Of a DNA stretch of 64,000 nt, positions 8,103 through 43,483 are shown piece by piece. Position numbers and translations under genes: made by a program. Within the stretch, counting starts at the first letter, position 1; each line of letters starts with the position of its first letter. The stretch is taken from the NCBI GenBank assembly GCA_013205565.1, contig JABMMM010000091.1, positions 1 through 64,000 of the forward strand, in the 5' to 3' direction. The notes beneath the pieces are model-generated. The model was not told the origin of the DNA and searched no databases. It was given only the letters and a program-made list of their open reading frames with translations. Source of the stretch: Alcaligenaceae bacterium (GTDB taxonomy: Bacteria > Pseudomonadota > Gammaproteobacteria > Burkholderiales > Burkholderiaceae_B).

Positions 8103-8148
8103 AAATTTTTTAAGTCCGATCGCGACAAGTTCTTTTGCGTTCTGTCAC

Positions 8149-8184
8149 AATCAGAATCAGAATCAGAATCGGAATCGGAATCCG
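8149..8184. repeat. Hexanucleotide tandem repeat (AATCAG/AATCGG)6
   Basis: Six consecutive 6-bp units occur: three AATCAG, two AATCGG and a final AATCCG. They lie in the 110-bp spacer between the Bug and histidine phosphatase genes, 28 bases before the latter's ATG. Slipped-strand copy-number change here would alter leader or promoter spacing without touching a reading frame. Confidence 0.85.
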
Positions 8185-8212
8185 GCTCACTTAACCTTTC
8201 TTTGGATTGCAT

Positions 8213-8827
8213 ATGTCACTTTTTTTGATTCGCCACGGCGAAACGCTGCTGAATGCAGCACGCACCGTTCAGCCTGCTGCCACACCTCTTGCGCCGCGCG
8301 GACTTGCGCAGGCTGAGCTCGTCGCCGCGCGCGTGGTTGGGCTCAAACCTGCAGCGATCTTATCAAGCGATATGCCGCGTGCCTGGCAAACTGCCGAGGC
8401 AATCGCGCGCCATACGGGGCTCGAACCTCTAAGCACTGAATTATTACGCGAGCGTAACTTTGGTGATCTGCGCGGCCGCCCTTACGACACACTGAGCTTT
8501 AACCCACTTGAGATGATTGAGGCCCCCGCAAACGGTGAGTCGTTAGCCGAGTTTCACGAGCGCGTGGCAGAGGCCTTCGAGTATGCTGCGCGGCTGCGCG
8601 TCTCGCTCGATGGCCCATTGGTGGTGGTTTGCCATGGCTTGGTGATTCATGCCATGCTGGCCAATTGCATTGACGTGGGCAAACATCCTATACCTGCGCG
8701 CATCGGCAACACTTCAATCACTCAGGTAATCGCTCAACACCCCTTCAGCGCTGAACTGGTGAACTGTACGGTTCACTTAAATGGCACTGACTTAGCAGAA
8801 GATACTAAAAGCTTATCGGGCGGCTGA
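8213..8827 (+). CDS. Histidine phosphatase family protein
   Basis: This 204-residue protein of the phosphoglycerate-mutase-like superfamily has the catalytic block LIRHGET at residues 5-11 and the second active-site histidine in VVCHGLVIH. The intervening SSDMPRAWQTAEAIA and ERNFGDLRG are family hallmarks, with the acidic residue of ERNFGDL the likely proton donor. These are cytoplasmic phosphomonoesterases of varied specificity, including cobalamin phosphatase, 2-phosphoglycerate mutase-like and broad types, and the substrate cannot be read. The ATG at 8213 was chosen over an in-frame TTG two codons upstream. It is convergent with the molybdenum hydroxylase cluster. Confidence 0.9.
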   Translation: MSLFLIRHGETLLNAARTVQPAATPLAPRGLAQAELVAARVVGLKPAAILSSDMPRAWQTAEAIARHTGLEPLSTELLRERNFGDLRGRPYDTLSFNPLEMIEAPANGESLAEFHERVAEAFEYAARLRVSLDGPLVVVCHGLVIHAMLANCIDVGKHPIPARIGNTSITQVIAQHPFSAELVNCTVHLNGTDLAEDTKSLSGG

Positions 8828-8851
8828 CGCACGCGACACACGCCGCGACCG

Positions 8852-10081
8852 TCAACGCAAGCCGAATAGATTTTTTATTTTCTGCCACAGGATACTAAAC
8901 AGAACGCTGACCGGGTTGATGGCCTGAGTCTCAAAGGGCTCTGCCGCCTCAGGCTGAGTTAAACGCTGCGTCACATTCCGACCAAAATCTGCCACCATTC
9001 GCCGCACAAATTCTTGCACCAAGCCCGAGCGTGAAAACTGTGCCAAGGGCCCCTGCAAGGTGTAGAGTAATTCCACAGCAACACGCGTACTTGAAGCACT
9101 TAATACTTCGAGTTGATAACGTACATCGCCGGTCGCACGCGACTGACTGACCGAATCCTGACCCGTCCCTTTCAAGACCGCAACCCGTTGCGCCGCATCA
9201 CGCTCAATGGTGGCGCTACCTTTGAAGGTTGCAGACATAGGGCCAAATTTAATTGCAATCTTGCCTGCGACCTGCTCGAGCGTTTCGCTTTCAACCTGTG
9301 CACCAGGCAAACAGCTTGCGACCGCTTTTAAGTCAGACATGAAAGTCCAAACCTCGTCCACGCCAAATGGCAAATCAAACGACGCGCTGACTTTCGTACC
9401 TTTTTGACGACCCTCTTGATGATCTGCTTGGCGAGCTGAATCACTGCCAACGGTGGCAGCGCGAGCAGCGAGTGGATCACCCGAGTCAGGGGCTTGTGCA
9501 ATCTGACGCTTGGCTTCAAAGCTCATGAAATCTTGCGCAGCCTCTGGACGGGCAACAGGCTGCGCCACCCGCTTGGTCATCGCTGTACGCAACGCTTGAA
9601 CCTGAACATCCGGCTCAGCGCGCAAGTCTTGCAAGACCGCCAAGATCGCCGACACAATCCCCATGTAGCCGGTGCAACGGCACAAATTACCTGCGAGTTC
9701 AATGCGCACGCGCTGCTCATCGGCTTGTGGCAAGCGCAAGATGATATCGCGCGCGGTTGCCAGCATGCCTGGCGTGCAGTAGCCACACTGCAAAGCATGA
9801 TGGACGCTGAAGGCCGCACGCAGTCGCGCCATCACGGGATCCGACTCGTAACCTTCAATCGTGGTAATGGCACGCCCTTGACAGGCTACTGCGTAAGTAA
9901 TGCAAGCTCTGACGGGTTCGCCATCAAGCAGCACAGTGCACGCGCCGCAGACGCCATGTTCGCAGCCAAGATGAGTACCCGTGAGTTGCACGACGTCGCG
10001 TAAGAAGTCACCCAAGTGGGTTCGGTCAGAGACCGTCTTTTGAATTGACTGACCGTTGACCGTTAAGGTAAGAGTATTCAT
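8852..10081 (-). CDS. 2Fe-2S subunit of a molybdenum hydroxylase fused to a CoxG/SRPBCC domain
   Basis: This 409-residue protein joins two parts. Residues 1-160 are a standard small subunit of the CO-dehydrogenase/xanthine-dehydrogenase family, with all eight iron-sulfur cysteines visible (C40, C45, C48, C60; C99, C102, C134, C136). Residues about 160-235 are a low-complexity linker. Residues about 235-385 are a CoxG-like SRPBCC domain (SASFDLPFGVDEVWTFM, CLPGA, KIAIKFGPM). CoxG is usually a separate protein implicated in anchoring or maturing CO dehydrogenase. The small subunit passes electrons from the molybdenum site to FAD. The start overlaps the stop of the FAD subunit by 4 bases, and it is the last gene of the cluster. 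Confidence 0.93.
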   Translation of the reverse strand: MNTLTLTVNGQSIQKTVSDRTHLGDFLRDVVQLTGTHLGCEHGVCGACTVLLDGEPVRACITYAVACQGRAITTIEGYESDPVMARLRAAFSVHHALQCGYCTPGMLATARDIILRLPQADEQRVRIELAGNLCRCTGYMGIVSAILAVLQDLRAEPDVQVQALRTAMTKRVAQPVARPEAAQDFMSFEAKRQIAQAPDSGDPLAARAATVGSDSARQADHQEGRQKGTKVSASFDLPFGVDEVWTFMSDLKAVASCLPGAQVESETLEQVAGKIAIKFGPMSATFKGSATIERDAAQRVAVLKGTGQDSVSQSRATGDVRYQLEVLSASSTRVAVELLYTLQGPLAQFSRSGLVQEFVRRMVADFGRNVTQRLTQPEAAEPFETQAINPVSVLFSILWQKIKNLFGLR

Positions 10082-10917
10082 GCGTGCACACCAAAAGCCT
10101 GCGCGAGGCAGCGCGCTATTGCAGCGCCGGCCATGCGGCGCCCTAGCGTATCAAGTTGCTCAATTGCCCCCTTTAACGCGGCCTCAATGGCTGCCTCAGA
10201 CGCCACAGCCAAGCCGCCGCGAGCCACTTCGCTGGCAAGCGTTTCAAGTGCCACTGGGGCACTATCTAACGCACCCACCACAATCTGAGCCGTTGCACTC
10301 GCGGGTTCAAAATAGACCGCACAACTGGCCTCAGCGAATTCGCCTGTCTTTCGACAAAACTTGTAGTAGCCCCAACGGGCTTGCGCGCTCAAGCGTGGCA
10401 GATGCAGCGCGGTAATCACCTCGCCCTCAGCCAAGCTCGTGGTGTAGGCTGCCAACATGAAGTCTTGCATCTTGATGAGTCGCGGCGCTTGCTCAAAGGC
10501 ACGCACTTCCACCAGAGCGTTCAGCGCACGCGCAGCAAGTATCCAGTCGGCTGCGGGATCGGCATGCGCCAAACTACCCCCTACCGTGCCACGGTTGCGC
10601 ACGGAGCGATAAGCAATACGCGCCGCCATCTCTTGCACCGGATGCCCGCGCAAAAGCTCAAAGCAACCATCCTCAATCTCAGCATGCGTCACCGATGCCC
10701 CAACACGCACACGCCCCTCGATTAGCTCGACAGTGCGTAGCTCGTCTAAGCGCGACACATCCACCACTTGCGCCGGGCGAGCCAGCCTTAAGTTCAGCAT
10801 GGGGCCCAAGGATTGACTGCCTGCCATTAATTTCGCTTGACCGTCGGAACGAGCAAGCGCCCGCAAGGTTTCAACAAGCGTGGCGGGCTTAACATAGTCG
10901 AACGATGCCGCCTTCAT
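10078..10917 (-). CDS. FAD-binding medium subunit of a molybdenum hydroxylase (CoxM-like)
   Basis: This 279-residue protein has the FAD-binding layout of the CoxM/XdhB family: MKAASFDYVKPATL at the N-terminus, AKLMAGSQSLGPMLNLRLA (first flavin phosphate-binding loop), then RNRGTVGGSLAHADPAADW (second flavin-binding motif). It carries electrons from the two iron-sulfur clusters to the external acceptor. Both ends overlap neighbours by 4 bases (ATGA type) and the three subunits are translated in the order large, medium, small. Length is typical, with no truncation. Confidence 0.94.
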   Translation of the reverse strand: MKAASFDYVKPATLVETLRALARSDGQAKLMAGSQSLGPMLNLRLARPAQVVDVSRLDELRTVELIEGRVRVGASVTHAEIEDGCFELLRGHPVQEMAARIAYRSVRNRGTVGGSLAHADPAADWILAARALNALVEVRAFEQAPRLIKMQDFMLAAYTTSLAEGEVITALHLPRLSAQARWGYYKFCRKTGEFAEASCAVYFEPASATAQIVVGALDSAPVALETLASEVARGGLAVASEAAIEAALKGAIEQLDTLGRRMAGAAIARCLAQAFGVHA

Positions 10918-13283
10918 TGCACACCACCGGCTTTTTGTTCAAGCGCCTCAAGAACACGCCGCGGCGTCAACGGCGTACGCGCGAGTTCGGATGCGCCGAC
11001 TCTGCGCAAGGCATCATTGACCGCACCAAAAATCGCAGCGGGTGGTGCAATCGCGCCACCCTCGCCCATCCCCTTGGCGCCAAACTCTGTGTGTGGAGAG
11101 GGCGTTTCAAAATGATCGATCCGAATATTAGGAACCTCAGTGGCACCGGGCATCACATAGTCAGCGAGGGTTGAGGCCAGTGGCTGCGCAAAATCGTCGT
11201 AACGCATTTCTTCATACAACGCCGTACCAATTCCCTGCGCGACCCCACCGATCGTTTGTCCTTCAACCACCATGGGGTTCACGAGCACGCCACAGTCTTC
11301 AACCACCACATAATCCAAGATTTCAACACCGCCCATTTGCGGATCAACCGCCACCAGGGCCACGTGTGTGGCATAACTAAAGGCACCCGTATCCACCCGC
11401 GGTTTATAGCCAACGGTCGCCTCTAAACCCGCCGGATCTACATCGGGCGGTAAGAGTTGTGGGCTTAGGTACCAGGCTTTTGCAATTTCACTTAAAGACA
11501 CCCGACGCTCAGCGCAACAGACCGCCCCCCCCTCAAGCACGACCTCAGTCACTTTAGCTTTCAACAAATGCGCACCAATGTTCAACAGTTGCGGCACAAG
11601 CTTCTGGCAGGCTTGCGACACCGCTCCGCCCGACATCACCAGCGAACGCGACGCGTAGGTGCCACTTGAATACGGAGTCTGCCCCGTGTCACCGTGCATC
11701 ACACGCATGTTAGACAGATCAATCCCCAACACTTCGTGCGCGATCTGCGCGAAGGTGGTTTCCATCCCTTGCCCATGCGAGTGCACCCCCACTCTAATTT
11801 CAAGGCCACCATCAGGTGTCATGCGCACCATCGCCTGATCAAAGCCAGGCACAATAGGCATCCCCCAGGCCGCAAACACCGAGGTGCCGTGCGCCGATTG
11901 CTCGGTGTACGTGGCCAAGCCAACACCAATCAAGCGCCCATCGGCCTCGCCTTGTTGTTGCCGCGCGCGCACCGCTTTGACATTGATCATCTCAAGCGCA
12001 CGCCTGACACTGGCCGGATAATCACCGCTATCAAAATGTTTATTTGCCACATTCACATACGGCATCTGCTCGGGCTGCACAAGATTTTCAAGACGAATCT
12101 CCCAGGGCTCGCGACCCACCTCAAGCGCCAGAGCGTTAAGCGTGAGTTCCATGGCAAAGCACACACCGGTGCGAGCCACGCCGCGGTAGGGTACAAAACC
12201 AGGCTTGTTTGTGGCGACACATTGCGTGACGCAGCGGTAACCATCAAAAGCGTAAGGGCCGGGCAGATTACCGATCGCCTGACCAGGCTCAATCCCAATC
12301 GTAAAGGGCCAGACTGAATAAGCGCCACCGTCAATCGTAATCTTCGCATCAAGCGCCAATAAGCGGCCGCGACGATCGGCGTAGGCCGTCATCTCGTAAT
12401 GATGCTCACGCGTATTCGCGCCCGCGATCAGATGTTCGCGACGGTCTTCAAGGTAGCGAAACGGCTTGCGATAGGTCTTGGCAAGCCAGGCGACGCAAAG
12501 TTCTTCTTGCTGCAGCACGCACTTGTAGCCAAAGGCCCCACCCACGTCAGGCGAAATCACTCGCACCTGCCCCTGATCCATCTGCAAATACTGAGCCAGT
12601 GCCGTACGTATTAAATGCGGCACTTGCGTGGCACTCACGACCACTAACTGATTGGCCTGATGATCCCAGTACGCCAGCACGGCTTTACCCTCAAGCGGCA
12701 CCATGCACTGGCGTGCGAGGCTCATCTTTCGATGCACCACGACTTCTGCCTGTGCAGCAAGTGCGTCAAATTTTTTATCTACCGACAAGGTCACGAAAAC
12801 ATTGTCCTTCCATTTCTCATGCACCAAGTTTTCGGTGGCTTGCATGGCGCTTAACACATCCGCATACGCGGGTAGCTCTTGGTACTGCACTTGCACGGTT
12901 TCGAGCAGATCTTCAGCTTCGGCGCGCGTCGGGGCAAAGCCCATCACAACCGGCTCGCCCACAAAGCGTACTTTGCCGCTCGCTAACGGCGGATGCGCCG
13001 ACAGTTGATAGGTTGGCAAGGACGAGTCAGCCGCAATATCGAGTACATCGCTCAAGTGCGCGCGCGTGAACACAGTGGGCTGACTAACAGGGGGAACCTC
13101 AATGGACGTCACCCTTGCGTGCGCTAAAGGGCTGCGCATAAAAGCGACTTCAGACAACCCAGGCATCACCATATCTGCAACAAAATTTGCTTTGCCATGC
13201 AGATGACGATCATCTTCTTTACGCAACACCCTCGCCCCGATCCCCTGAGGCTTGATGCGCGCTGTGCTACCTGGGTGTCCCAT
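10914..13283 (-). CDS. Molybdopterin-binding large subunit of a xanthine dehydrogenase-family hydroxylase
   Basis: This 789-residue catalytic subunit starts with the family's GIGARVLRKEDDRHLHGKANF block and includes GGAFGYK (cofactor loop), PYRGVARTGV and, near the C-terminus, EFGAKGMGEGGAIAPPAAIF, which carries the conserved active-site Glu of molybdenum hydroxylases. The active-site loop is PYRGVAR rather than the AYRCSFR signature with the Cu-binding Cys of true CO dehydrogenase, so it is a form II/aldehyde-oxidase-like enzyme. It should hydroxylate a carbon next to nitrogen in a heteroaromatic ring, or an aldehyde, using water. Context (HyuAB, PreA-like) favours an N-heterocycle. The start is an ATG at 13283. 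Confidence 0.93.
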   Translation of the reverse strand: MGHPGSTARIKPQGIGARVLRKEDDRHLHGKANFVADMVMPGLSEVAFMRSPLAHARVTSIEVPPVSQPTVFTRAHLSDVLDIAADSSLPTYQLSAHPPLASGKVRFVGEPVVMGFAPTRAEAEDLLETVQVQYQELPAYADVLSAMQATENLVHEKWKDNVFVTLSVDKKFDALAAQAEVVVHRKMSLARQCMVPLEGKAVLAYWDHQANQLVVVSATQVPHLIRTALAQYLQMDQGQVRVISPDVGGAFGYKCVLQQEELCVAWLAKTYRKPFRYLEDRREHLIAGANTREHHYEMTAYADRRGRLLALDAKITIDGGAYSVWPFTIGIEPGQAIGNLPGPYAFDGYRCVTQCVATNKPGFVPYRGVARTGVCFAMELTLNALALEVGREPWEIRLENLVQPEQMPYVNVANKHFDSGDYPASVRRALEMINVKAVRARQQQGEADGRLIGVGLATYTEQSAHGTSVFAAWGMPIVPGFDQAMVRMTPDGGLEIRVGVHSHGQGMETTFAQIAHEVLGIDLSNMRVMHGDTGQTPYSSGTYASRSLVMSGGAVSQACQKLVPQLLNIGAHLLKAKVTEVVLEGGAVCCAERRVSLSEIAKAWYLSPQLLPPDVDPAGLEATVGYKPRVDTGAFSYATHVALVAVDPQMGGVEILDYVVVEDCGVLVNPMVVEGQTIGGVAQGIGTALYEEMRYDDFAQPLASTLADYVMPGATEVPNIRIDHFETPSPHTEFGAKGMGEGGAIAPPAAIFGAVNDALRRVGASELARTPLTPRRVLEALEQKAGGVQ

Positions 13284-13319
13284 TCTTCACACTCTTTTCA
13301 GATAAGGTTCAAACGATTC

Positions 13320-14414
13320 CTAGCGACGATTCACCGCGGCGAAGGTGTAGTTATCCAGTGTCGCCTCAGCCAAACGGAACCAACTGGCCTCGCTCTGCTG
13401 AAACTTCTGCCACTCAGGGAAGATTGCCGCAAAGTCAGGATTTTTTTCTGACAGTTCTTTCCAGAGCTCTTGCGAAGCGTTATAAGTTGCATCCATCACA
13501 TCTTTTGAAAACAGATTGACTTTAGCGCCACCGCCGATCAGTTTACGCAACGCCTCGGGATTTTTGGCATCATAGTTGGCCAGCATCTTGAGGGTTTGCT
13601 CGTTACAGGCGACTTCAAAGGCCGCTTGATACGCGGGTGGGAGCTCGGCAAACGCTTTGTCATTGACCATCGTGGTAATCGAGGCGCTGCCCTCAAACCA
13701 GCCTGGGGCGTAGTAGAAAGGCGCCACTTTGTTGAGGCCAAGCTTCTCGTCGTCGTAGGGGCCAATCCACTCTGCTGCGTCAATCGTGCCCTTTTCAAGA
13801 GCTGAATAAATGTCGCTTGGCGGAATTTGCTGAGGCACAGCACCCAGTTTTGAAAGAACCATCCCTCCGATACCACCAATACGCATCTTTAAGCCTTTAA
13901 TATCGGCCAAGGATTTGATCTCTTTGCGATACCAGCCACCCATTTGAACGCCCACATTTCCGCAGGTGAAATTGATGATGTTGTACTTTTTATAAACCTC
14001 GCGCACGAGCGGCAGGCCCCCTCCATACTGCAGCCAGGCATTATGCTGACGCGCATTCAAACCGTAACTTAAGCCAGTATCAAAGGCGAGCGCGGTATTC
14101 TTACCGATAAAGTAAGTGCTGAGGGTGTGATTACACTCAACCGTGCGGTTGCTCACGCCATCCATACTTTGTAGCGCGGGCATGATTTCACCGCCTGCAA
14201 ACACACGAATTTCGAACTTACCGTCAGTCAGTTGCGCGACGCGCTTACCGAGCTCTTCGGCAGAGCCATAAATCGTGTCAAGTGTTTTAGGCCAGCTAGT
14301 AGACATGCGCCATTTGACCGTGGGGCTGGTCTGGGCGAAAGCTGGCGCACCCATTGCGGCTAAACCAGCGCCAGCTACTGTTGCAGTTTGAGTAAGAAAG
14401 CGACGTCGTTGCAT
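13320..14414 (-). CDS. TRAP transporter periplasmic receptor (DctP family), Tat-type signal
   Basis: This 364-residue exported protein starts MQRRRFLTQTA, a twin-arginine-like signal, followed by a hydrophobic stretch ending APAFAQ. The mature part has DctP features, and WIGPYDDEKLG resembles TakP-type 2-oxo-acid receptors, which I recall but could not compare. The receptor should capture an organic acid in the periplasm, but no DctQ or DctM membrane subunit is present in the window, so it must use a transporter encoded elsewhere. The ATG at 14414 is preceded by GGAG; a 15-codon upstream extension would bury the signal. It lies between hyuB and the hydroxylase large subunit. Confidence 0.92.
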   Translation of the reverse strand: MQRRRFLTQTATVAGAGLAAMGAPAFAQTSPTVKWRMSTSWPKTLDTIYGSAEELGKRVAQLTDGKFEIRVFAGGEIMPALQSMDGVSNRTVECNHTLSTYFIGKNTALAFDTGLSYGLNARQHNAWLQYGGGLPLVREVYKKYNIINFTCGNVGVQMGGWYRKEIKSLADIKGLKMRIGGIGGMVLSKLGAVPQQIPPSDIYSALEKGTIDAAEWIGPYDDEKLGLNKVAPFYYAPGWFEGSASITTMVNDKAFAELPPAYQAAFEVACNEQTLKMLANYDAKNPEALRKLIGGGAKVNLFSKDVMDATYNASQELWKELSEKNPDFAAIFPEWQKFQQSEASWFRLAEATLDNYTFAAVNRR

Positions 14415-14501
14415 GCGGATCTCCGAGAGATAGGTTAAATGAGCATACTGATAGGTCAAGCAAAGAGCAACAGCGGTGAAGCGTCTAGCTAGCGTCAGGC
14501 G

Positions 14502-16046
14502 TCAATTTTTAACGCCGTAACCCCCTCCGCCGGGTAAGCCTAGTTCGAGGATATCGCCCTCGACCATATCGACTACACCTTTGGGATGTTCGACTGCCTG
14601 GCCATTAAGCAACACATGACCAGTACGTCCCGCCTGTCCGCCTTCAATACTTTTAGCGGGCACGCGTGTGCGTTCGGTTAGTAAAGAGACGCGCAGACGA
14701 CCCGGCCAGCGCGACTGAAAAGATACTTTTTGTCCCATGCCACCGCGGTGCGCACCTTCGCCCCCCGAGCCTTCAATCAAACTCTTGCAACCAAAGAGCA
14801 CCGGTGAGAGCATCTCTGCGACCTCGATCGGCGTATTTGAAATATTGGCTGGAAACCCTGAGGTAGGTGGCCCATCGCGATCACGCATCGCACCCATTCC
14901 ACCGTTAAAAAAGAGAATGCTCGAAAATGAGGTCCCGAGTGCAGGATTTACGCCGCGCATCAACACGGACCAAAGCGGTGTCCCACTATCGGCCTGCACG
15001 CGTTCGGGCATCACCTTGGCAAGCGCCTCAAACACTGCAGCTTGCAGCTGATGTCCGATCAAATGTCTTGCACCCACTGCGGCGGGCGGCTTCGCATTGA
15101 CGATGGTCCCTTCAGGGGCGATCACTTTAAATAGCCGCGTAAAGCCATCGTTATTTGGGATGCCTGGCGACAACAAACATTTGAAGGGATAGATCGTATA
15201 AGCATAGGTATGATTAAAGGTTTCGTTGATACCAAACCTGACCTGCGCTGTGCTGCCGCTGTAATCGACCGTCACGCCCTCGTGACTCACTGTAATCTTG
15301 GCCTGGATTCTAATGCGCTCATCCCAACCATCAGACTCAACCGAGCCGTGATAGACACCCGGAGGAATCTTTCGCAACTCACGCAAGGCCGCGTCTTCAG
15401 AGGCTTTAAAAATGGCACCTGCAATCTCGTTGATATCGCTTAAGCCGTACTCTTCTAACAACTCTGTCAAGCGACGCTCAGCCACGCGCAATGCCCCCAC
15501 CTGCGCTTCGATATCACCACGCACTTGCTGCGGCAAACGCACGTTGGCTTCAAGCATCTGCATGACCCAGGGGTTAAACACTCCAGCTTCAGCAAGTTTG
15601 ATGACCGGAAACCGGATCCCCTCTTCATACACCTCACCCGCATCGGCGGACCACTGGCGTCCGCCCACATCCGATAAGTGCGCGACCGCCATCGCAAAGG
15701 CGACTAAGCGCTCACCGAAAAAAATGGGTGCGACCATCGTGGCATCCGGCAAATGACCTGTGCCGATCCAAGGGTCGTTAGTAAACAGAATATCGCCTGG
15801 TTTCAAGGTCTCTTGAGGAAACACCTTCAAGATCCCTTTAAGCGACAAAGGGGCTGTGCCGATAAAGCCGGGGATACTCAGGGCAGATTGCGCGACTAGT
15901 CGCGCTTCGGGATCAAGCAGCACGCAGGCAAAATCGTTGGACTCACGCACGACGGTGGAGAACGAGGTACGTTTAAGCGTTGCCCCGGCTTCGTCGGTAA
16001 TCGCGATCAGTCTGTTCCAGTAAATCTCTAGATCAATCGGGCTCAT
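14502..16046 (-). CDS. hyuB: Hydantoinase B/oxoprolinase family protein (HyuB)
   Basis: This 514-residue protein matches HyuB/N-methylhydantoinase B and the acetone carboxylase alpha family. Visible features are the N-terminal SPIDLEIYWNRL, FTNDPWIGTGHLPD, VAHLSDVGG and the glycine-rich C-terminus LGLPGGGGYG. With HyuA it forms an ATP-dependent cyclic-amide hydrolase or a related carboxylase in the cytoplasm. The ATG at 16046 has a strong AGGAG and starts 19 bases after hyuA ends; the 15-codon upstream extension would overlap hyuA. The HyuA-HyuB pairing is complete, and no gamma subunit typical of acetone carboxylase is present, favouring a hydantoinase or oxoprolinase role. Confidence 0.92.
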   Translation of the reverse strand: MSPIDLEIYWNRLIAITDEAGATLKRTSFSTVVRESNDFACVLLDPEARLVAQSALSIPGFIGTAPLSLKGILKVFPQETLKPGDILFTNDPWIGTGHLPDATMVAPIFFGERLVAFAMAVAHLSDVGGRQWSADAGEVYEEGIRFPVIKLAEAGVFNPWVMQMLEANVRLPQQVRGDIEAQVGALRVAERRLTELLEEYGLSDINEIAGAIFKASEDAALRELRKIPPGVYHGSVESDGWDERIRIQAKITVSHEGVTVDYSGSTAQVRFGINETFNHTYAYTIYPFKCLLSPGIPNNDGFTRLFKVIAPEGTIVNAKPPAAVGARHLIGHQLQAAVFEALAKVMPERVQADSGTPLWSVLMRGVNPALGTSFSSILFFNGGMGAMRDRDGPPTSGFPANISNTPIEVAEMLSPVLFGCKSLIEGSGGEGAHRGGMGQKVSFQSRWPGRLRVSLLTERTRVPAKSIEGGQAGRTGHVLLNGQAVEHPKGVVDMVEGDILELGLPGGGGYGVKN

Positions 16047-16065
16047 GCCACGCTCCTTTGCTGCT

Positions 16066-18192
16066 TCATGCCGCACGCCCTTGACGGGCACCGAGGGTGA
16101 TTCTTAGATTGCCGTGCGTGTCTAACGTAAAGGCATCGCCCGGACCAATCACCACAGTCGAGCCGGGTTGTTCAACCAACGCGGGCCCCTCGTAACGCTG
16201 CGCGATGCGCAACTGTTCAAGCGACAGCACCGGTGTTTGAATATAACCCTCTATATCCGGAAAAAAGACTTGGCGCGAACGCTTGGCCTGTGCAAGCTGG
16301 TCGGCGGGCGCCCGTGACGAACGCACTTCAGTACTGAGAGCAGCGTTCGCCGAGGCCTCGACGCGCCAATTCACAGCTTCGACCCGTTGGCCGATCAATT
16401 TTCCGCCAAAGCGGGCTGTATAGGCCTGCGCAAACGACGCCTCGATGGTGTTCTGTTCGGTCTGCACCAATTGCGCAGACAATTCAGTTTCGACTTCAAA
16501 CCCCTGACCAACATAACGCATATCGGCGCTACGACGAAACGTGATCCGGTCTCGTGTGACACCCGCAGACGCTAGTTCTTTGCTCAAGGCATCTTCCATC
16601 CCCTGCAGTAGGGCCTCAATCACTGGCCAGTCCATCTCGCTTAAGCGCGCATAGCGCGTGCGAACCATGTCCATTTTCATTGTAGCAACCAGCAAGCCAA
16701 AGGCCGAAAACACACCGGCATTGGCTGGCACCAATAGATCAGAACCGCCACAGCGACGCGCAACTTCGCGTGCATGAATCGGGCCTGCGCCGCCGAAGGC
16801 GAGCAAGGTATAACGTCGAATGTCGCGGCCATTTTCGACCGCATGAATTTTTGCGGCCACTGCCATATGCTCGCAAACAATCCGATGAATCCCGTTGGCC
16901 GCTTCGACAATACTCAACCCTAAGGGGCGCGCAACATGTTCTTCGATCGCTTGCTCGGCTAGGTCCAGACGCAAACTCACCGCACCGCTTAACGTACCCT
17001 GCGGATCAAGATAACCCAGCACTAAGGCCGCATCGGTCACCGTAGGGCGTGTGCCGCCCAAGCCATAACACGCGGGCCCAGGGCTTGACCCTGCACTCTG
17101 GGGGCCAACTTTTAGCAAACCTGTGGTGTCAACGTGCGCAATGCTGCCACCGCCCGCACCAATCTCGATCAGATCAATAGTCGGTAAACGCACCGGCAGC
17201 CCACTGCCTTTTTTAAACCGTTGCTGACGCGCTGCTTCAAACTCTGTCGTAATCGACGGACGCCCGTTCGAAATTAAACACGCCTTGGCTGTCGTGCCGC
17301 CCATATCAAACGCCATTACGTTCGGTGTATTTGATACACGGGCAGAGTGTGCCGCACCCAAGGCGCCCGCCGCGGGCCCCGATTCGAGCATGCGAATCGG
17401 CATACGCTCACCGAGTTCACGAGATATGACACCACCGTTTGACTGCATGATGTGCAACGTCGCGTTCAGCCCAATTGCCCGTAAGCCGTCTTCAATCGCA
17501 CCTAAGTAACTGCCAACCATCGGCATGACACACGCGTTGAGCACCGTCACGACCGTACGCTCGTATTCACGGATTTCGCCCAACACTTCAGACGACAATG
17601 AAATCGATAGCTCGGGTGCAATCCGCTGCGCGATCGCTTTCACACGCTGTTCGTGAGCGGAGTTGGTAAAGCTATGTAAAAAGCACACGGCAATGGCACG
17701 CACCCCAGCATCGCGTAAGTGACACACGACACGCTCGACCTCTTGGTCTTGCATGGCAATCACGACCTCACCTGCAGCATCGACACGTTCGCGGACTTCG
17801 GCTCGCAACGCGCGCGGCACAATCGCATCAGGCCCTGGCGCAGTCAAGTCATACAGATCGTAGCGCAACTCGCGTGCGATCTCGATCACATCGCGAAACC
17901 CTTCGGTTGTGATCAAGCCGGTGACAGCGCCTTTGCGCTCAATCACAAGATTTGTCACCGCAGTGGTTGCCCCGACCACCACGTCGGTCACTTGAGCAAG
18001 CGTCAGACCGTGCTCTTTAAGCAAGGCCAGTAAGCCCAATCGAATGGGCATCACGACATCGGGCGCACCCGTCAGGACCTTTGAGGTGAAGATACTGCCA
18101 TCGTGACCGAGCAATACCAAATCGGTAAAGGTGCCACCGATATCAAACGCAAAACGATACGGCTGGCTAGAAGCTAACGCCTGAGCACTCAT
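16066..18192 (-). CDS. hyuA: Hydantoinase A/oxoprolinase family protein (HyuA)
   Basis: This 708-residue ATP-binding partner of HyuB begins with FDIGGTFTDLVLL, the sugar-kinase/Hsp70-type phosphate-binding loop. GATTAVTNLVIERKGA, ESGPAAGA, AFDMGGTTAK and FGGAGPIHA follow, all diagnostic for the family. It activates the amide carbonyl of a five-membered or larger lactam or imide by phosphorylation so that it can be hydrolysed. Length is typical. The ATG at 18192 is two bases downstream of the PreA-like gene's stop codon, so translation is likely coupled. Substrates known for the family include N-methylhydantoin and 5-oxoproline; which applies here cannot be read. Confidence 0.93.
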   Translation of the reverse strand: MSAQALASSQPYRFAFDIGGTFTDLVLLGHDGSIFTSKVLTGAPDVVMPIRLGLLALLKEHGLTLAQVTDVVVGATTAVTNLVIERKGAVTGLITTEGFRDVIEIARELRYDLYDLTAPGPDAIVPRALRAEVRERVDAAGEVVIAMQDQEVERVVCHLRDAGVRAIAVCFLHSFTNSAHEQRVKAIAQRIAPELSISLSSEVLGEIREYERTVVTVLNACVMPMVGSYLGAIEDGLRAIGLNATLHIMQSNGGVISRELGERMPIRMLESGPAAGALGAAHSARVSNTPNVMAFDMGGTTAKACLISNGRPSITTEFEAARQQRFKKGSGLPVRLPTIDLIEIGAGGGSIAHVDTTGLLKVGPQSAGSSPGPACYGLGGTRPTVTDAALVLGYLDPQGTLSGAVSLRLDLAEQAIEEHVARPLGLSIVEAANGIHRIVCEHMAVAAKIHAVENGRDIRRYTLLAFGGAGPIHAREVARRCGGSDLLVPANAGVFSAFGLLVATMKMDMVRTRYARLSEMDWPVIEALLQGMEDALSKELASAGVTRDRITFRRSADMRYVGQGFEVETELSAQLVQTEQNTIEASFAQAYTARFGGKLIGQRVEAVNWRVEASANAALSTEVRSSRAPADQLAQAKRSRQVFFPDIEGYIQTPVLSLEQLRIAQRYEGPALVEQPGSTVVIGPGDAFTLDTHGNLRITLGARQGRAA

Positions 18193-18194
18193 AC

Positions 18195-19511
18195 TTAGCC
18201 CTTAACTTTTGAGAGCTTAATGCCACGTTCAAAGCCATTTTCGAATTTCTTAGACTCAAACACGTTGTCTTTAATCGAGAAAAACTCTTGTAACACCCGC
18301 TGCTCGTCGGTGGTCGTGTGCATCGAGGTGGCATCAAACGGGCAAGTTTGCGTGCACATTTCACAACCGATACAGTTAGCATGAATCGACTCGACCGAAC
18401 CGTCACCTTGCGCCAAGGCATCATAAAAACAGGTTTGAATACAAATCGTACAGGTTGGATTTTTACAGGCCTCAGAGGCAATTTCACTGTGCATGCGGGG
18501 CTTACGAAACTGCTCGCCATAATCCTTCACTGCTGCGCGCGAGGCAATCCCTGTCATCGAGGCGATATCTGGATAGCCATGGGTATCCATAAAGTTATCA
18601 AGCCCTGTAATCATGCTGGGCAAGTACTTGATCCCTTTGAGCATCAGCACCGACCCCACCTGCACCAGCGGCGCACCGGTCATGATGAACTCTACGATAT
18701 CTTTATGATCGTAGATGCCGTTCGATCCGGTAATTGGCATGCCCAATTCTGTATAGATACGGTTGACCCAACGCAGCGATAAAGCTTTGGCCCAAACCCC
18801 ACCGATCCCGGCAGGCCCACCCAAGCGAGGCAATCCGGTTTCGATATCAACAGAAAATCCTGTGTAGCGATTGGTGGCGGTCACACCGGCCGCACCTGCT
18901 TCTTTAACCGCCCGCGCCACGTCGAGCACACGCGATTGATCTGGAGTGAGTTTAATAATCACCGGGATCTTGACGGCCTCGCAGACGCGCGCGGTGACCT
19001 CGCGCGCAATCTCAGGTTCTTGCCCAATCATCGAGCCGCCATGCACACCGGGCATCATGGCCGGATGCGGACAACCAAAGTTCAACTCGACCATAGGCAA
19101 GCCGCAATCCTCGATCGTGCGGCAAATATCGATCCAACTTTGTATGGTTTTTCCGCCGGCGCTACCAATCAAATGTGAGCCTTGATCTTGCGCGTACTTG
19201 TTAAGGTCTTTTAAATGCGGAATCCATTCACGCAAGGGCGTACTTGAGTAACCCGAACGGCTGTAGAACACAAAATTCTTGTTGACCTTACCTTTAATCA
19301 GTTCATTTTTTTCATTCAGAATCGCGTACTTTGAATTTTGCGTCAAACGCGCCATATCTTCGATATCAGTGAGGGTCTTGATAATCATCCCACCTGCACC
19401 GGCATCAACACACTCGCGAATCACTTCAGGGCTATTGGTGGTTTCAAGCGACGCTATCACCACGGGATTCTTAAATTTGACGCCACAAAAATCTAAAGAG
19501 AGATCAGCCAC
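18195..19511 (-). CDS. PreA-like dihydropyrimidine dehydrogenase-type flavin/iron-sulfur reductase
   Basis: This 438-residue protein has an FMN TIM barrel of the dihydroorotate/dihydropyrimidine dehydrogenase type (residues about 1-320: FCGVKFKNPVVIAS, LNFGCPHP, IKLTPD, TATNRYTG, TGSNGIYD). A C-terminal two-cluster ferredoxin domain follows, with CKNPTCTICIQTC and CIGCEMCTQTCP. PreA reduces a pyrimidine ring C=C with electrons from its partner PreT; no PreT-like gene is present here. At the loop carrying the catalytic Cys in mammalian enzyme (ACGQDPE), this protein has MIGQEPE. The start is GTG at 19511 with AGGGG upstream; I saw no better start. It is the first structural gene after the marR gene and two bases from hyuA. 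Confidence 0.9.
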   Translation of the reverse strand: MADLSLDFCGVKFKNPVVIASLETTNSPEVIRECVDAGAGGMIIKTLTDIEDMARLTQNSKYAILNEKNELIKGKVNKNFVFYSRSGYSSTPLREWIPHLKDLNKYAQDQGSHLIGSAGGKTIQSWIDICRTIEDCGLPMVELNFGCPHPAMMPGVHGGSMIGQEPEIAREVTARVCEAVKIPVIIKLTPDQSRVLDVARAVKEAGAAGVTATNRYTGFSVDIETGLPRLGGPAGIGGVWAKALSLRWVNRIYTELGMPITGSNGIYDHKDIVEFIMTGAPLVQVGSVLMLKGIKYLPSMITGLDNFMDTHGYPDIASMTGIASRAAVKDYGEQFRKPRMHSEIASEACKNPTCTICIQTCFYDALAQGDGSVESIHANCIGCEMCTQTCPFDATSMHTTTDEQRVLQEFFSIKDNVFESKKFENGFERGIKLSKVKG

Positions 19512-19562
19512 GCGTTGCCCCTAAATTAAGCGAAATTAAATCAATGAAAAAGTTCAGAGACC

Positions 19563-20177
19563 TCAGAGCTCACCCACTCGACGCCCGCGCGCCTTTAAAG
19601 TCTCGCCACCTGGTCGCAGCGAGGTGCGACCACTGTCGTTATTGCCCTCGACCAGCCGCCCGAGAAGCGCCATGAACACCTGGCGATCAGCAGGATTGAG
19701 TGGGCTCAGCAATTGCTGTTGTGATAACTGCATATCTTTTTGATAACGCTGTACGAATTTTTTTCCTTCTGGCGTGGCCAAGCATAATTTGCGTCGACGA
19801 TTCTGCGGATCGACTACCCGAGTGAGCAGACTGCGGTCTTCAAGACGCCTGAGAATTTCTGCAACGTTAGCGGGATCGAGTCCAAGCTCAGCGCCAAGGG
19901 TGGCTTGATCGATGCCTGGCCGGCGGATCAAAATGCTGAGCAAGCCAAACTGCACAGGGGTCACTTGCCCATCGGCCACGCGCGCCGAAAACATGGCCAC
20001 ATGAATTTGATGCAATCTGCGCACTAAATAGCCTGGTCGATCCCAAATCGTGTGGTTAGCCGGGGAGTCGTTGGCGGTGACGTTGGACACCGTTGGCACG
20101 ACCACCAAGGCGGGCTGCGCGCGCGCGGCAGGTTTTGGACCTAACTGGGGTGACACGACAGGCACATTTTTACGCAC
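19563..20177 (-). CDS. MarR family transcriptional regulator
   Basis: This 204-residue protein has a MarR winged helix at about residues 45-165: FGLLSILIRRPGIDQATLGAELG, then the recognition helix region ANVAEILRRLEDRSLLTR and the wing VDPQNRRRKLCLAT. The first 40 residues and the last 30 are extra, polar and of low complexity. MarR proteins are dimeric repressors released by small, often aromatic, ligands. It lies 51 bp upstream of the PreA-like gene in the same orientation, so it probably controls the cluster. A promoter and direct-repeat operator lie directly upstream (20196-20259). The GTG start at 20177 has a GAGG sequence. Confidence 0.9.
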   Translation of the reverse strand: MRKNVPVVSPQLGPKPAARAQPALVVVPTVSNVTANDSPANHTIWDRPGYLVRRLHQIHVAMFSARVADGQVTPVQFGLLSILIRRPGIDQATLGAELGLDPANVAEILRRLEDRSLLTRVVDPQNRRRKLCLATPEGKKFVQRYQKDMQLSQQQLLSPLNPADRQVFMALLGRLVEGNNDSGRTSLRPGGETLKARGRRVGEL

Positions 20178-20195
20178 GACTCGCCTCGTTCAACG

Positions 20196-20223
20196 GTTCG
20201 TATACTGATTGTTCGTATACTGA
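20196..20223. promoter_or_regulatory. Direct-repeat operator upstream of the marR gene
   Basis: Two perfect 13-base copies of GTTCGTATACTGA lie at 20196-20208 and 20211-20223, a 15-base period. Each contains the palindrome GTATAC. They cover the predicted transcription start, ideal for repression by the adjacent MarR protein. Confidence 0.6.
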
Positions 20224-20229
20224 CAGTTG

Positions 20230-20259
20230 ATTATGTAGCGACCCGTCCTTTCTTGTCAA
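20230..20259 (-). promoter_or_regulatory. Sigma70-type promoter of the marR-led cluster
   Basis: On the minus strand, TTGACA (20259-20254) is a perfect -35 element and CATAAT (20235-20230) is a near-perfect -10, with 18 bases between them. Transcription would start near 20223, at the edge of the repeated operator and about 45 bases before the marR start codon. Confidence 0.65.
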
Positions 20260-20361
20260 GCAAAAAACAAGGGGCGGTTAAAGTCGGCCTTCGGCGCAAA
20301 CTCGGCATCTTAGAATGGCAGGCACAAGTGTTTACCAGCAAATACCCAGCGCGAGACGAGG

Positions 20362-22617
20362 TCAGTGCCTATGCAGTCGTGCAAAACTCTCAAAGTCATG
20401 CGCCGGAATTGGGCGGCTGTACAAATACCCTTGAAACGCGAGGCAACCGATATCTTGTAAAAACTCTTGTTGCTTTAAGGTCTCAACGCCCTCTGCAATC
20501 ACCTCAAGCCCCAAAGAGTGTCCGAGCGTCACGATGGTACGCGCGATGGCAGCGCCGTGCGCATCGGTCAGCATATCGCGCACAAACGACTGATCAATTT
20601 TGAGCTGATCAAGCGACAAGCGCTTCAGATAATTGAGCGACGAATAGCCTGTACCAAAGTCATCAAGCGACACCGCGATACCAATGTCTTTAAGCGAAGC
20701 AATCTTGCGATTGACATCACCCAAATCATTGACAAGCATGCTTTCAGTCAGTTCGAGCTTCAGCCGCTCGGGGGGCGCCCCACTGGCTTTTAGCGCACTC
20801 AACACCGTTTCAGTAAAGTCTGGTTGCTGAAACTGCATGGGGCTGATGTTGACAGCTAGCTTAAGCTCACGCATGTGGTCTACCTGAGCCCAGCGGGATA
20901 ATTCAATACAAGATTGCTCAAGCACCCAACCCCCAAGCTGCTTGATAAAGCCGATTTTTTCTGCAAGTGGCACAAACTGGCCAGGCGAAATGTTGCCATA
21001 GATGGGATTGTTCCAACGCAACAAGGCTTCGGCCCCGCTAACTTTAAGATCTGAATCAATTTGAGGCTGAAAGTGCAAGTTCAGTTGTTTGCCTTGAATC
21101 GCTTGACGCAACTCATTTGCCATCAGCAAGCGCTCGTCGAGGCTTGCTTGCATCTGCGCATCAAAGAAACGATAAGTGTCCTTACCATTGGCCTTGGCCT
21201 GATACATCGCCAAATCTGCGTTTTGCAATAACACCTCTGCACTCGCTTGGCGGTCGCCAATTAAAATCACCCCTGCGCTGGCAGAAGAGTCGTGCGCTGT
21301 TCCTTGCAACTCGATCGGGGTAGACAGTAAACTTAGCACACGCTGCACTGCCGCGAGCGCTCTGGCACCAGACAAAGCATGATCGGCTCCCAGATTTCTG
21401 AGTAACACCACAAACTCATCCCCACCGATCCGAGCGACCGTTTCATCGGCGCGCACACAGCTCAACAAACGCTGGCTGACCTCAATTAAAAATTGATCGC
21501 CTTGCTGATGACCAAAGGCGTCATTCACATTTTTGAAGTTGTCCAGATCCAAATAAATCAAAGCGCCATAGTTGCGCTCATCTAAACAAGACTGCAGCGC
21601 TTCGCTTAAGCGTTCAGTCAGCAAACGACGATTCGCCAAACCAGTCAGAGCATCGGTAAACGCCAGCTGCTCAATTTTTTGTGCAGCTTGTTTTTGCATC
21701 GAGATATCACGCTGTACACCCACAAAATTTGTGCAAACGGCTTGCTCGTTAAAGAGCGGTACGACGTCTAAGGCTATCCAACTAGGCTGCTTGGGATTGG
21801 CATACGTCAGCAGCTCAACACTCAGGGGCCTTTTCTCATCAAAGGCAGCCGTGACCAGCGCAAGCTCTGGAAGAGCGAGCTGACCCGGCTTGAGCAACGG
21901 TGGTCGTTGACCAAGAAGTTGCTCGCGCGCGACGCCTGACATCTTTGTCAAGGCGTCGTTGGCGAAAATCACCTTGGGTCCATCGTGCAGATCAACATCG
22001 GTGACCCACACCCCATCATTCACAAAGGTGACCGTCGCTTCAAGTAAACGCAATTGCTCAATGCGCTCACGTAATTCGCGATCGATCTCGCGCAAAGCCC
22101 GCTCAGACAGCGCTTTACTCGTGAGCGAATCCGCAATTTGCTGAACCTCGATATTGTCGAAAGGCTTTTTAAGAATCAAAAACCGATCGCTATTTTCAAG
22201 TTGTTCGCGGATTTCACCCCAAGAAAAATCTGAAAATGCAGTACACAAAACGATGTGCAACTGCGGATCGAGTTGCCACATACGCTGCGTGGTTTCAATG
22301 CCATTCCAACCGTTGGGCATTCGCATGTCGACGAACACCAACGAATAAGCGTCGTTTTGCTCTTGCGCCTGCCGCACACGCTCAAGCCCTTCTTGCCCGC
22401 GCGTCGCGACATCGATGCGATACTCAATATCGTGAAATTTGACAGGCGCTTCACGGCCAAATAGGCCAGCCGCCATATCTTTCACTTGAACACTCTTGAC
22501 AGAACGAACAGACAACACTTTCAAAAAGTCTTCACCAATCGCAATATTGTCGTCCACGACTAAAATCCGTCTGGGCAAATTTTCTTGCGATCTAGGTAGA
22601 TTTTCTTGCAATATCAT
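20362..22617 (-). CDS. Response regulator with REC, PAS, GGDEF and EAL domains
   Basis: This 751-residue cytoplasmic protein has a receiver domain (RRILVVDDN; phospho-acceptor D97 in VFVDMRMP) carrying an insertion between residues about 40 and 65, and a PAS domain (about 190-310). An intact diguanylate cyclase signature, RIGGDEF, and an EAL phosphodiesterase with EALLRW, ELTESM, DDFGTGYSS and KIDQSF follow. Both c-di-GMP synthesis and breakdown are chemically possible, so phosphorylation probably sets the balance. Its ATG overlaps the stop of the histidine kinase gene by 4 bases, making them a cognate pair. Their position at the end of the cellulose block suggests that they tune BcsA. Confidence 0.94.
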   Translation of the reverse strand: MILQENLPRSQENLPRRILVVDDNIAIGEDFLKVLSVRSVKSVQVKDMAAGLFGREAPVKFHDIEYRIDVATRGQEGLERVRQAQEQNDAYSLVFVDMRMPNGWNGIETTQRMWQLDPQLHIVLCTAFSDFSWGEIREQLENSDRFLILKKPFDNIEVQQIADSLTSKALSERALREIDRELRERIEQLRLLEATVTFVNDGVWVTDVDLHDGPKVIFANDALTKMSGVAREQLLGQRPPLLKPGQLALPELALVTAAFDEKRPLSVELLTYANPKQPSWIALDVVPLFNEQAVCTNFVGVQRDISMQKQAAQKIEQLAFTDALTGLANRRLLTERLSEALQSCLDERNYGALIYLDLDNFKNVNDAFGHQQGDQFLIEVSQRLLSCVRADETVARIGGDEFVVLLRNLGADHALSGARALAAVQRVLSLLSTPIELQGTAHDSSASAGVILIGDRQASAEVLLQNADLAMYQAKANGKDTYRFFDAQMQASLDERLLMANELRQAIQGKQLNLHFQPQIDSDLKVSGAEALLRWNNPIYGNISPGQFVPLAEKIGFIKQLGGWVLEQSCIELSRWAQVDHMRELKLAVNISPMQFQQPDFTETVLSALKASGAPPERLKLELTESMLVNDLGDVNRKIASLKDIGIAVSLDDFGTGYSSLNYLKRLSLDQLKIDQSFVRDMLTDAHGAAIARTIVTLGHSLGLEVIAEGVETLKQQEFLQDIGCLAFQGYLYSRPIPAHDFESFARLHRH

Positions 22618-29519: not shown

Positions 29520-29523
29520 GGTC

Positions 29524-29605
29524 GTTTAAAAACTTGTGTAAGCGTTAACGTGCAGCAACAGCGAAGACGCGGTAGTTTAGAGACTCGTGTATCCGTTAAC
29601 GTGCG
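29524..29605. repeat. Imperfect 51-bp tandem duplication at the end of the AlgF-like gene
   Basis: The segment around the stop codon of the AlgF-like gene (29575-29605) recurs, imperfectly, at 29524-29554. Shared elements are GTGTA, CGTTAACGTGC and GTTTA, at a constant 51-bp offset. The outer copy again encodes a frame ending Ala-Arg-stop, so it looks like a partial tandem duplication that left a remnant tail in the spacer. Confidence 0.55.
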
Positions 29606-30276: not shown

Positions 30277-30343
30277 CCCTTTAACTCCATAAGCGAGCAG
30301 ACTTCGGGTACCACGTAAACCAACGACTGCGTGTGTCATTTCT

Positions 30344-30988: not shown

Positions 30989-30999
30989 CGGTGTTTCCT

Positions 31000-31659: not shown

Positions 31660-31679
31660 AAAAACACTCTGAGATAAAG

Positions 31680-43406: not shown

Positions 43407-43483
43407 CAGCACTACCCTTTCGAAAATCGGCCTTTGCTTGATTTGACTCAGCAAACAAAGAGGGCCGACGTGGCTTTGTGTGG

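Follow-up and report, generated by a model that had tools for sequence, protein, structure and literature searches.

Picolinate (pyridine-2-carboxylate), a metal chelator, arises in the breakdown of tryptophan and of 2-aminophenol, and the bacterial gene route described for its degradation, pic, uses a monooxygenase and a dioxygenase. Nicotinate can be degraded reductively, with a hydrolytic opening of the ring. In the accessible portion of PMC10142695, the pic gene set consists of picA1A2A3, picB1-4, PicC (amidohydrolase family), PicD-F and picR; in Bordetella bronchiseptica RB50 it is bb0268-bb0283, with picT and picB divergent. Reductive nicotinate catabolism in Eubacterium barkeri and Azorhizobium caulinodans proceeds by 6-hydroxylation and reduction to 1,4,5,6-tetrahydro-6-oxonicotinate, with a glutarate exit in Azorhizobium (PMC3511419, in excerpt). 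A HydA/HydB pair organisation is described for lactamases of the hydantoinase/oxoprolinase type, and predicted 2-oxoindoleacetyl-CoA lactamases of this Hyd family open a lactam in the indoleacetate pathway (PMC5214803, in excerpt). A cluster of eight genes from a freshwater Alcaligenaceae bacterium (assembly GCA_013205565.1, 3.4 Mb in 337 contigs) is compared here with these systems. It lies in the first 64,000 nucleotides of contig JABMMM010000091.1, a stretch termed the window.

On present sequence comparisons, the cluster is probably a picolinate catabolic operon with a reductive lower branch. The first-pass annotation had listed eight co-directional genes for MarR, a PreA-like flavin/iron-sulfur reductase, HyuA, HyuB, a tripartite ATP-independent periplasmic (TRAP) receptor and hydroxylase subunits L, M and S, and eight minus-strand open reading frames (ORFs) in 8852-20177 occur in just this order (Table 1). 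Of the span it gave, 8852-20259, the start is retained; the ORFs extend to 20177, and 20259 is the first base of a promoter-like match. It had left the substrate open, and genome comparison narrows this to picolinate or a close relative.

The PreA-like gene is present in 24 of 32 genomes of the same genus, the source genome included. Among 69 relatives from beyond the genus, two have a match to the protein, G062 at 85% and G082 at only 33%. Draws of 369 genomes from the class and 398 from the phylum gave 3 and 16 other matches respectively, all at 31-35% identity; by their active-site motifs these are ordinary PreA proteins. Two peptide patterns run against 84,980 species genomes returned 67 loci; relatives without these patterns may have escaped this search. 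One (L125, 26%) was dropped, and the other 66, at no less than 58% identity, are mostly from Burkholderiales (many of them lake metagenome-assembled genomes, MAGs) and Rhodobacterales/Rhodospirillales. A plasmid search with the PreA-like protein gave no match at 1e-60. Across the scanned genomes, linkage of the PreA-like gene with CoxLMS, MarR and an enzyme for ring opening recurs in both Beta- and Alphaproteobacteria. Because of this recurrent linkage and the frequency within the genus, the set is no chance arrangement. Two PreA-like paralogues (L103 and L122, 66% and 58%) occur in a single Rhodospirillales MAG, JASLQF01. Five loci (L059, L062, L067, L084, L092) come from bins titled Bordetella parapertussis, with PreA-like genes 83-99% identical to that of the window, whose genome is Zwartia-type; the names look wrong. 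At L121 and L123 the examined stretch lacks CoxL, and the PreA-like gene is surrounded by genes for an AMP-ligase, acyl-CoA dehydrogenase, nitroreductase and class III aminotransferase.

CoxLMS very probably acts on picolinate. The enzyme has three CoxLMS-type subunits and shares close sequence relation and gene order with the PicA of pic clusters. G036, a genome of the same family, repeats the receptor-coxL-coxM-coxS order of the window exactly (receptor 74%, CoxL 74%, CoxS 55%), and the block adjoins homologues of picB1-4, F, D, E, C and R. Variovorax plasmids carry a CoxL at 69% to that of the window, with CoxM and CoxS, beside genes annotated as ferredoxin, FAD-dependent oxidoreductase, Rieske protein, NTF2-like protein, amidohydrolase, 2,5-dihydroxypyridine 5,6-dioxygenase, isochorismatase, alpha/beta hydrolase and MarR. 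These records bear no pic names, and the assignment to pic is made here from the gene composition in the accessible part of PMC10142695. The CoxL plasmid search gave 41 records; eight of the 20 listed were examined, including six of the ten in the 60-80% identity band. All seven examined loci without PreA-like gene but with CoxL at 66% or more (G036 and six plasmid records; L164, L166, L170, L171, L172, L174, L175) are oxidative pic clusters, and two such loci with CoxL at 57-59% (L165, L173) are not pic clusters. In a CoxL tree rooted with two proteins at about 30-33% (L091 and L093, that of L093 entered twice), the CoxL of pic clusters branch from within the group formed by the PreA-like loci; the nodes read have supports of 0.85-0.999.

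The solved structure nearest to CoxL is quinoline 2-oxidoreductase (490 bits), an enzyme that hydroxylates beside the ring nitrogen. As a carbon monoxide dehydrogenase, CoxL reaches 542 of the 950 needed, and this assignment was rejected. The examined stretches of the 66 loci contain nothing that matches PicB-F at 40% identity across half the length. The PicB Rieske protein, the one Pic protein covered by the genome-wide search, was found in none of the 32 same-genus genomes, with G036 recovered as a control. The receptor-CoxLMS module can be separate, as in Sheuella (L082), where it is divergent from marR-preA-hyuAB.

The receptor aligns with PDB entries 4yic and 4yzz, presumably B. bronchiseptica BB0280 with picolinate bound; this would agree with the RB50 pic range bb0268-bb0283 and with the layout of G036. 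In the receptor TakP, the cation and carboxylate are held by Tyr100, Gln156, Arg177, Glu214, Trp215 and Glu240 (PMC1839085, in excerpt). All six, Tyr100 included, are kept in a hand reading of the alignment to 4yic/4yzz, so the site would suit a carboxylate with a neighbouring chelating atom, such as a 2-oxo acid or picolinate. The Variovorax pic clusters have ABC transporter genes in place of the receptor. An AlphaFold2 (AF2) model of the receptor, with a predicted local distance difference test (pLDDT) score of 34, was not used. The upper half of the cluster (receptor, hydroxylase and MarR-type control) thus matches the pic system and is not new.

The reductase is related to PreA (PRK08318), with a score below the NCBIfam cutoff of 335. 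Ring-binding Asn144 and Asn214 and Cys147 of the CPH motif are kept relative to dihydropyrimidine dehydrogenase (DPD) and 20 PreA proteins; the Cys is presumed to be catalytic. Cys147, Arg85 and Arg215 are invariant in all 39 aligned PreA-like sequences, those of the window and 38 of the 66 loci. Asn-x-Glu and Asn-Thr, found in 20 of 20 PreA proteins, are absent from the nine PreA-like rows shown. Asn-x-Glu is replaced by FVFYSRSG with an insertion, and Arg215 takes the position of DPD Thr737. DPD Asn609, Glu611 and Thr737 are assumed here, as to both number and role, to recognize the pyrimidine; with these residues replaced, a pyrimidine ring is an unlikely substrate, and Arg85 and Arg215 may have a substrate carboxylate as partner. 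A true DPD was rejected on the residues and the score. In an AF2 model (mean pLDDT 71), residues 51-90 and 215-217 fall below 50, and for this reason the model was not used for geometry. Within the examined stretches, ferredoxin-NADP reductase (Fpr, at 45% or more) is linked in 17 of the 66 loci and an FdxA-type ferredoxin in 16; in Sheuella L082, Fpr directly follows hyuB. There is a good probability that the PreA-like enzyme reduces 6-hydroxypicolinate.

Two kinds of ring-opening enzyme follow preA. Among the 66 loci, HyuAB (at least 55%) is found in 30 and an amidase-signature amidase (at least 45%) in 22; none has both, nine have neither and five are too short to tell. The first-pass annotation had proposed hydroxylation beside a ring nitrogen, reduction of a ring C=C and ATP-dependent opening of the cyclic amide, and had suggested that linked amidase or hydrolase genes be listed. 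The order of steps fits the comparative evidence, and the amidase loci show HyuAB itself to be dispensable to the arrangement. In a midpoint-rooted tree of the PreA-like proteins, those linked to HyuAB make up a single clade among Betaproteobacteria and the amidase forms lie outside it, which suggests one exchange of amidase for HyuAB. The HydA and HydB pair has the domains of the hydantoinase/oxoprolinase superfamily, and the solved structures nearest to HyuA are N-methylhydantoinase (378 bits) and 5-oxoprolinase (346 bits). The pair falls short of caprolactamase CapAB, with scores of 497 and 193 where the NCBIfam cutoffs are 1000 each. It is quite probable that HyuAB opens the ring.

Some relatives carry further genes that may act downstream. 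Four Rhodobacterales-type loci (L105, L108, L111, L113) have a divergent set with an acyl-CoA dehydrogenase (GcdH), a fused 2-oxoacid dehydrogenase E1 and a transacylase-like protein. The proteins compared were the acyl-CoA dehydrogenase of L108 and the E1 and transacylase-like proteins of L111. For the first, 4w9u (named acyl-CoA dehydrogenase) scores 687 bits, and three chains that bear the name glutaryl-CoA dehydrogenase score 649-650. At L110, GcdH is cut by the contig end; electron-transfer flavoprotein genes are seen in L105, L111 and L114. As this is the expected fate of an opened tetrahydro-6-oxopicolinate lactam, the divergent set may convert 2-oxoadipate to glutaryl-CoA and on to crotonyl-CoA. 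The genome of the window has a GcdH homologue (69%) on another contig. The fused E1 gene is paired with a malonyl-transacylase-like gene (L111:4457-7677, also L105, L108 and L113), with no E2 recognised beside it. A DUF2848 protein (L110:3935-4633 and relatives) is linked to the amidase in amidase-type clusters.

The regulatory region before marR contains a promoter-like TTGACA-18 nt-CATAAT sequence (11 of 12 positions), followed downstream by two tandem copies of CAGTATACGAAC. It is one of two such matches in 8000-21000; shuffled sequences average 6.8, so that matches of this kind are not rare. GTATAC has only two sites in the 64 kb, both in the marR promoter. In 25 of 65 loci, the 200 bases before preA contain exact operator-like sites (L092, where preA starts at the contig end, was left out); with random 200-base windows, the count averaged 1.35 and never exceeded 7 in 2000 draws. 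Many Zwartia-type loci have the GTATAC pair before marR instead, as in the window. With a weight matrix, 24 of 33 promoter regions score a site (shuffle p no higher than 0.05). This matrix was trained partly on the sites scored and is thus partly circular; the count upstream of preA is the independent test. Operator matches are present at both promoters in L080, L101, L108, L110 and L116; in L082 and L083 a single promoter of the pair reaches the threshold, and in L076 and L084 neither does. The operator also precedes fdxA in all three loci tested. The 12-mer TCAGCATACTGA has two copies in G036, both in the interval from receptor to picB, and also lies between receptor and marR in L082, L083 and L116. 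TCAG-N4-CTNN is taken here to be the published PicR motif, and its first ten positions have one site in the Variovorax locus, between picB and picA. A lack of co-regulation had been named beforehand as evidence that would count against a common pathway; the shared putative operators point to joint control.

The following pathway is proposed. The TRAP receptor would, with fair confidence, capture picolinate. CoxLMS, orthologous to PicA, would with high confidence hydroxylate it at C6 with water to give 6-hydroxypicolinate, a 2-pyridone. The PreA-like enzyme, fed by ferredoxin/Fpr, would reduce C4=C5 beside the ring carbonyl to yield 1,4,5,6-tetrahydro-6-oxopicolinate. HyuAB with ATP would then hydrolyse the lactam, and the released enamine would collapse to 2-oxoadipate and ammonia. 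As a variant, the ring might be fully reduced first, with 2-aminoadipate formed on opening; 2-oxoadipate is moderately favoured as the product. The genes linked in some relatives suggest that 2-oxoadipate would pass via glutaryl-CoA to crotonyl-CoA. A PicR-like MarR would control the set from the promoter operators, with release by picolinate or 6-hydroxypicolinate assumed. O2 would be needed at no step, in contrast to the known PicB/PicD route. The broader proposal has four parts: an oxygenase-free reductive picolinate route in freshwater Burkholderiales and Rhodobacterales ending in 2-oxoadipate/glutaryl-CoA; a new PreA-fold-derived, ferredoxin-dependent 6-hydroxypicolinate reductase family, of which the key enzyme of this route would be the first member; a PicA/PicR upper module that connects to a lower half of oxidative or of reductive type; and an exchange of amidase for HyuAB. 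Taken together, these have somewhat better than an even chance of being correct.

Several observations weigh against this pathway. The receptor, with all the TakP pyruvate/cation residues kept, is by sequence also compatible with a 2-oxo acid. It occurs in only one of the seven oxidative pic loci (G036) and in no Rhodobacterales row of the CoxL comparison. No ferredoxin or Fpr gene is linked to the cluster in the window, and Fpr is found in only four of the 30 HyuAB loci. CoxL of four HyuAB loci (L075, L076, L077, L080) groups with Rhodobacterales and not with the window, which indicates that modules have been reshuffled. In nine of the 66 PreA-like loci, some of them on short contigs, the scanned distance contains no ring opener of either kind; L103 and L124 have a distant, sub-threshold HyuAB (31-37%) upstream of preA, and L103 an amidase as well. 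Nine of 33 regions lack an operator at p 0.05, including both regions of L076 and of L084. GcdH is a common enzyme; the GcdH proteins score 237 and 212, below the sole NCBIfam glutaryl-CoA dehydrogenase cutoff of 470. E1 scores best with pyruvate and 2-oxoisovalerate dehydrogenases and not with a named 2-oxoadipate enzyme, and linked E1 and GcdH are limited to some Alphaproteobacteria. The reductase family may also have more than one substrate, given that L121 and L123, without CoxL, are set among CoA-ligase and acyl-CoA dehydrogenase genes.

The same steps could act in the same order on a compound closely related to picolinate, such as N-methylpicolinate or a differently substituted pyridine-2-carboxylate. 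This would accord with the Rhodobacterales, including some with marine names, which carry the amidase form, have CoxL at 56-60% to that of the window and show no receptor homologue in the stretches examined; a methyltransferase-domain gene is also present in the neighbourhood of L121. It is unlikely for the window, where CoxL of the lineage is 66-74% identical to those of oxidative pic clusters, the receptor is 74% identical to one of theirs, and none of the eight genes resembles a methyltransferase or demethylase. Homarine was rejected as well: among the papers returned by a search for it, none concerns a homarine operon, as judged by titles and the beginnings of abstracts. CoxLMS might instead hydroxylate picolinate while PreA-like and HyuAB act on another compound as mere neighbours. 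The separable CoxLMS-receptor module, divergent in Sheuella L082, and the reshuffling in the CoxL tree leave room for this, yet the linkage spans Beta- and Alphaproteobacteria, operators match at both promoters in five loci (at one in L082/L083, at none in L076/L084), and the 32 same-genus genomes have no PicB Rieske protein to complete the known route. Such a coincidence is judged quite improbable.

A reductive nicotinate-type pathway, in which 6-hydroxynicotinate is reduced and opened to 2-formylglutarate, has the same step logic, reported from the anaerobe E. barkeri and the aerobic Azorhizobium and ending via glutarate (PMC3511419, in excerpt). It is very improbable here: the related hydroxylases lie with homologues of PicB1-4 and PicC, an E1 beside GcdH fits 2-oxoadipate better than formylglutarate, and no hydroxynicotinate reductase is among the best 25 of 57 NCBIfam matches of the PreA-like protein, a comparison that did not include that enzyme directly. 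The nearest named families, PreA and hydantoinase/oxoprolinase, might suggest a pyrimidine or hydantoin cluster with a dihydropyrimidine dehydrogenase and a hydantoinase. That assignment is scarcely credible in view of the missing Asn-x-Glu and Asn-Thr motifs and the low PreA score; moreover, the eight genes include no PreT, and the partners in some relatives are ferredoxin and Fpr.

Table 1. Genes and regulatory sites of the proposed picolinate cluster (positions in the window)
Feature	Position	Strand	Assignment and basis
marR	19563-20177	-	MarR-family regulator, PicR-like; 39% over 149 aa to MarR of the Variovorax pic cluster
preA-like	18195-19511	-	FMN/4Fe-4S reductase, proposed 6-hydroxypicolinate reductase; NCBIfam PreA (PRK08318) 228 bits, active-site residues
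hyuA	16066-18192	-	ATP-binding subunit of hydantoinase/oxoprolinase-type lactamase; Pfam Hydantoinase_A, Hydant_A_N, Hydant_A_C
hyuB	14502-16091	-	Pfam Hydantoinase_B, 494 bits
DctP-type TRAP receptor	13320-14459	-	Proposed picolinate receptor; likely start 14414; 668 bits to PDB 4yic/4yzz
coxL	10914-13283	-	Molybdenum subunit of proposed picolinate 6-hydroxylase (PicA)
coxM	10078-10917	-	FAD subunit of proposed PicA
coxS	8852-10081	-	2Fe-2S subunit of proposed PicA, with C-terminal CoxG domain
Promoter-like TTGACA-18-CATAAT and two GTATAC-centred predicted operators	20205-20259	-	Promoter match 20259-20230; operators 20220, 20205

The ORFs of coxS/coxM, coxM/coxL and hyuB/hyuA overlap, and two bases separate hyuA from preA. 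The overlap with hyuA suggests that hyuB probably starts further in. The receptor probably begins at a Met 15 residues inside its ORF, where the alignment to 4yic/4yzz starts. Residues 241-374 of the S subunit form the CoxG domain, a CoxS-CoxG fusion; the first-pass annotation had noted neither this domain nor the likely receptor start. Azospirillum encodes the CoxS and SRPBCC parts separately (L165:15140-16280), with genes for an amidase and an HpxZ-like protein next in line. The cluster is flanked upstream by a GGDEF/EAL gene and downstream by a convergent histidine phosphatase gene and a TctC receptor gene. In many Zwartia-type loci (L060, L066, L095 and others), SoxX, SoxY-like, SoxZ and SoxA genes lie directly upstream of marR, where the window has GGDEF/EAL genes; there, too, stand a second molybdenum hydroxylase, of a different type, and often a flavocytochrome c sulfide dehydrogenase. 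Further upstream, positions 26932-43454 of the window carry genes for cellulose synthesis and acetylation (BcsB, BcsC, GH8, AlgX-like, MBOAT and a sub-threshold AlgF match).

If the proposed pathway is correct, bacteria that lack the pic oxygenases, such as Defluviimonas denitrificans (by its name a denitrifier), could use picolinate with no need of O2 as a reactant. A function would be provided for the conserved PreA-like subfamily, whose scores lie under the PreA cutoff, and the recurring amidase-DUF2848-FdxA-Fpr set of Rhodobacterales would be explained. The first-pass annotation knew of no described pathway with exactly this gene set, and none is among the titles listed in the literature searched, which took in few subscription papers and neither of the two primary pic papers; the same holds for a reductive picolinate route. 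Within that literature its claim of novelty is thus upheld for the lower half (PreA-like with HyuAB or amidase), which appears undescribed, and falls for the upper half.

Caprolactamase CapAB, 5-oxoprolinase and N-methylhydantoinase are, like HyuAB, two-subunit ATP-dependent lactam hydrolases of one superfamily; the HyuAB of the window differs from CapAB in falling below the caprolactamase cutoffs. The indoleacetate lactamases offer another case of a Hyd-family enzyme that opens a lactam, as is proposed for HyuAB. In that pathway a molybdenum hydroxylase step also precedes the lactamase, the substrate is a bicyclic CoA compound and no PreA-like step is known. With PreA/DPD the reductase shares the DHOD-like barrel, the ferredoxin-type cluster domain and the catalytic Cys; it differs in the replaced pyrimidine-recognizing residues, the active-site insertions, the two invariant Arg and the absence of PreT from the eight genes. 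The reductive nicotinate pathway would be the closest parallel in logic, with 6-hydroxylation, ring reduction and exit of the carbon at the level of glutarate, and differs in the position of the carboxylate. Its reductase and ring-opening enzyme, compared by description only, are taken to belong to other families than PreA-like and HyuAB.

The pic system of Alcaligenes faecalis JQ135 and B. bronchiseptica RB50 shares with the cluster the PicA-type three-subunit hydroxylase, the MarR-type regulator and, through G036, an operator sequence. In G036 the receptor gene is beside picA and divergent from picB, as are picT and picB in RB50 (PMC10142695, in excerpt). The two differ in the lower half: reductive loci have PreA-like and HyuAB or amidase, and the PicB monooxygenase, PicC decarboxylase, PicD dioxygenase, PicE and PicF are unmatched in the examined stretches. 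If the proposal holds, a single upper pathway would be plugged into two different lower pathways.

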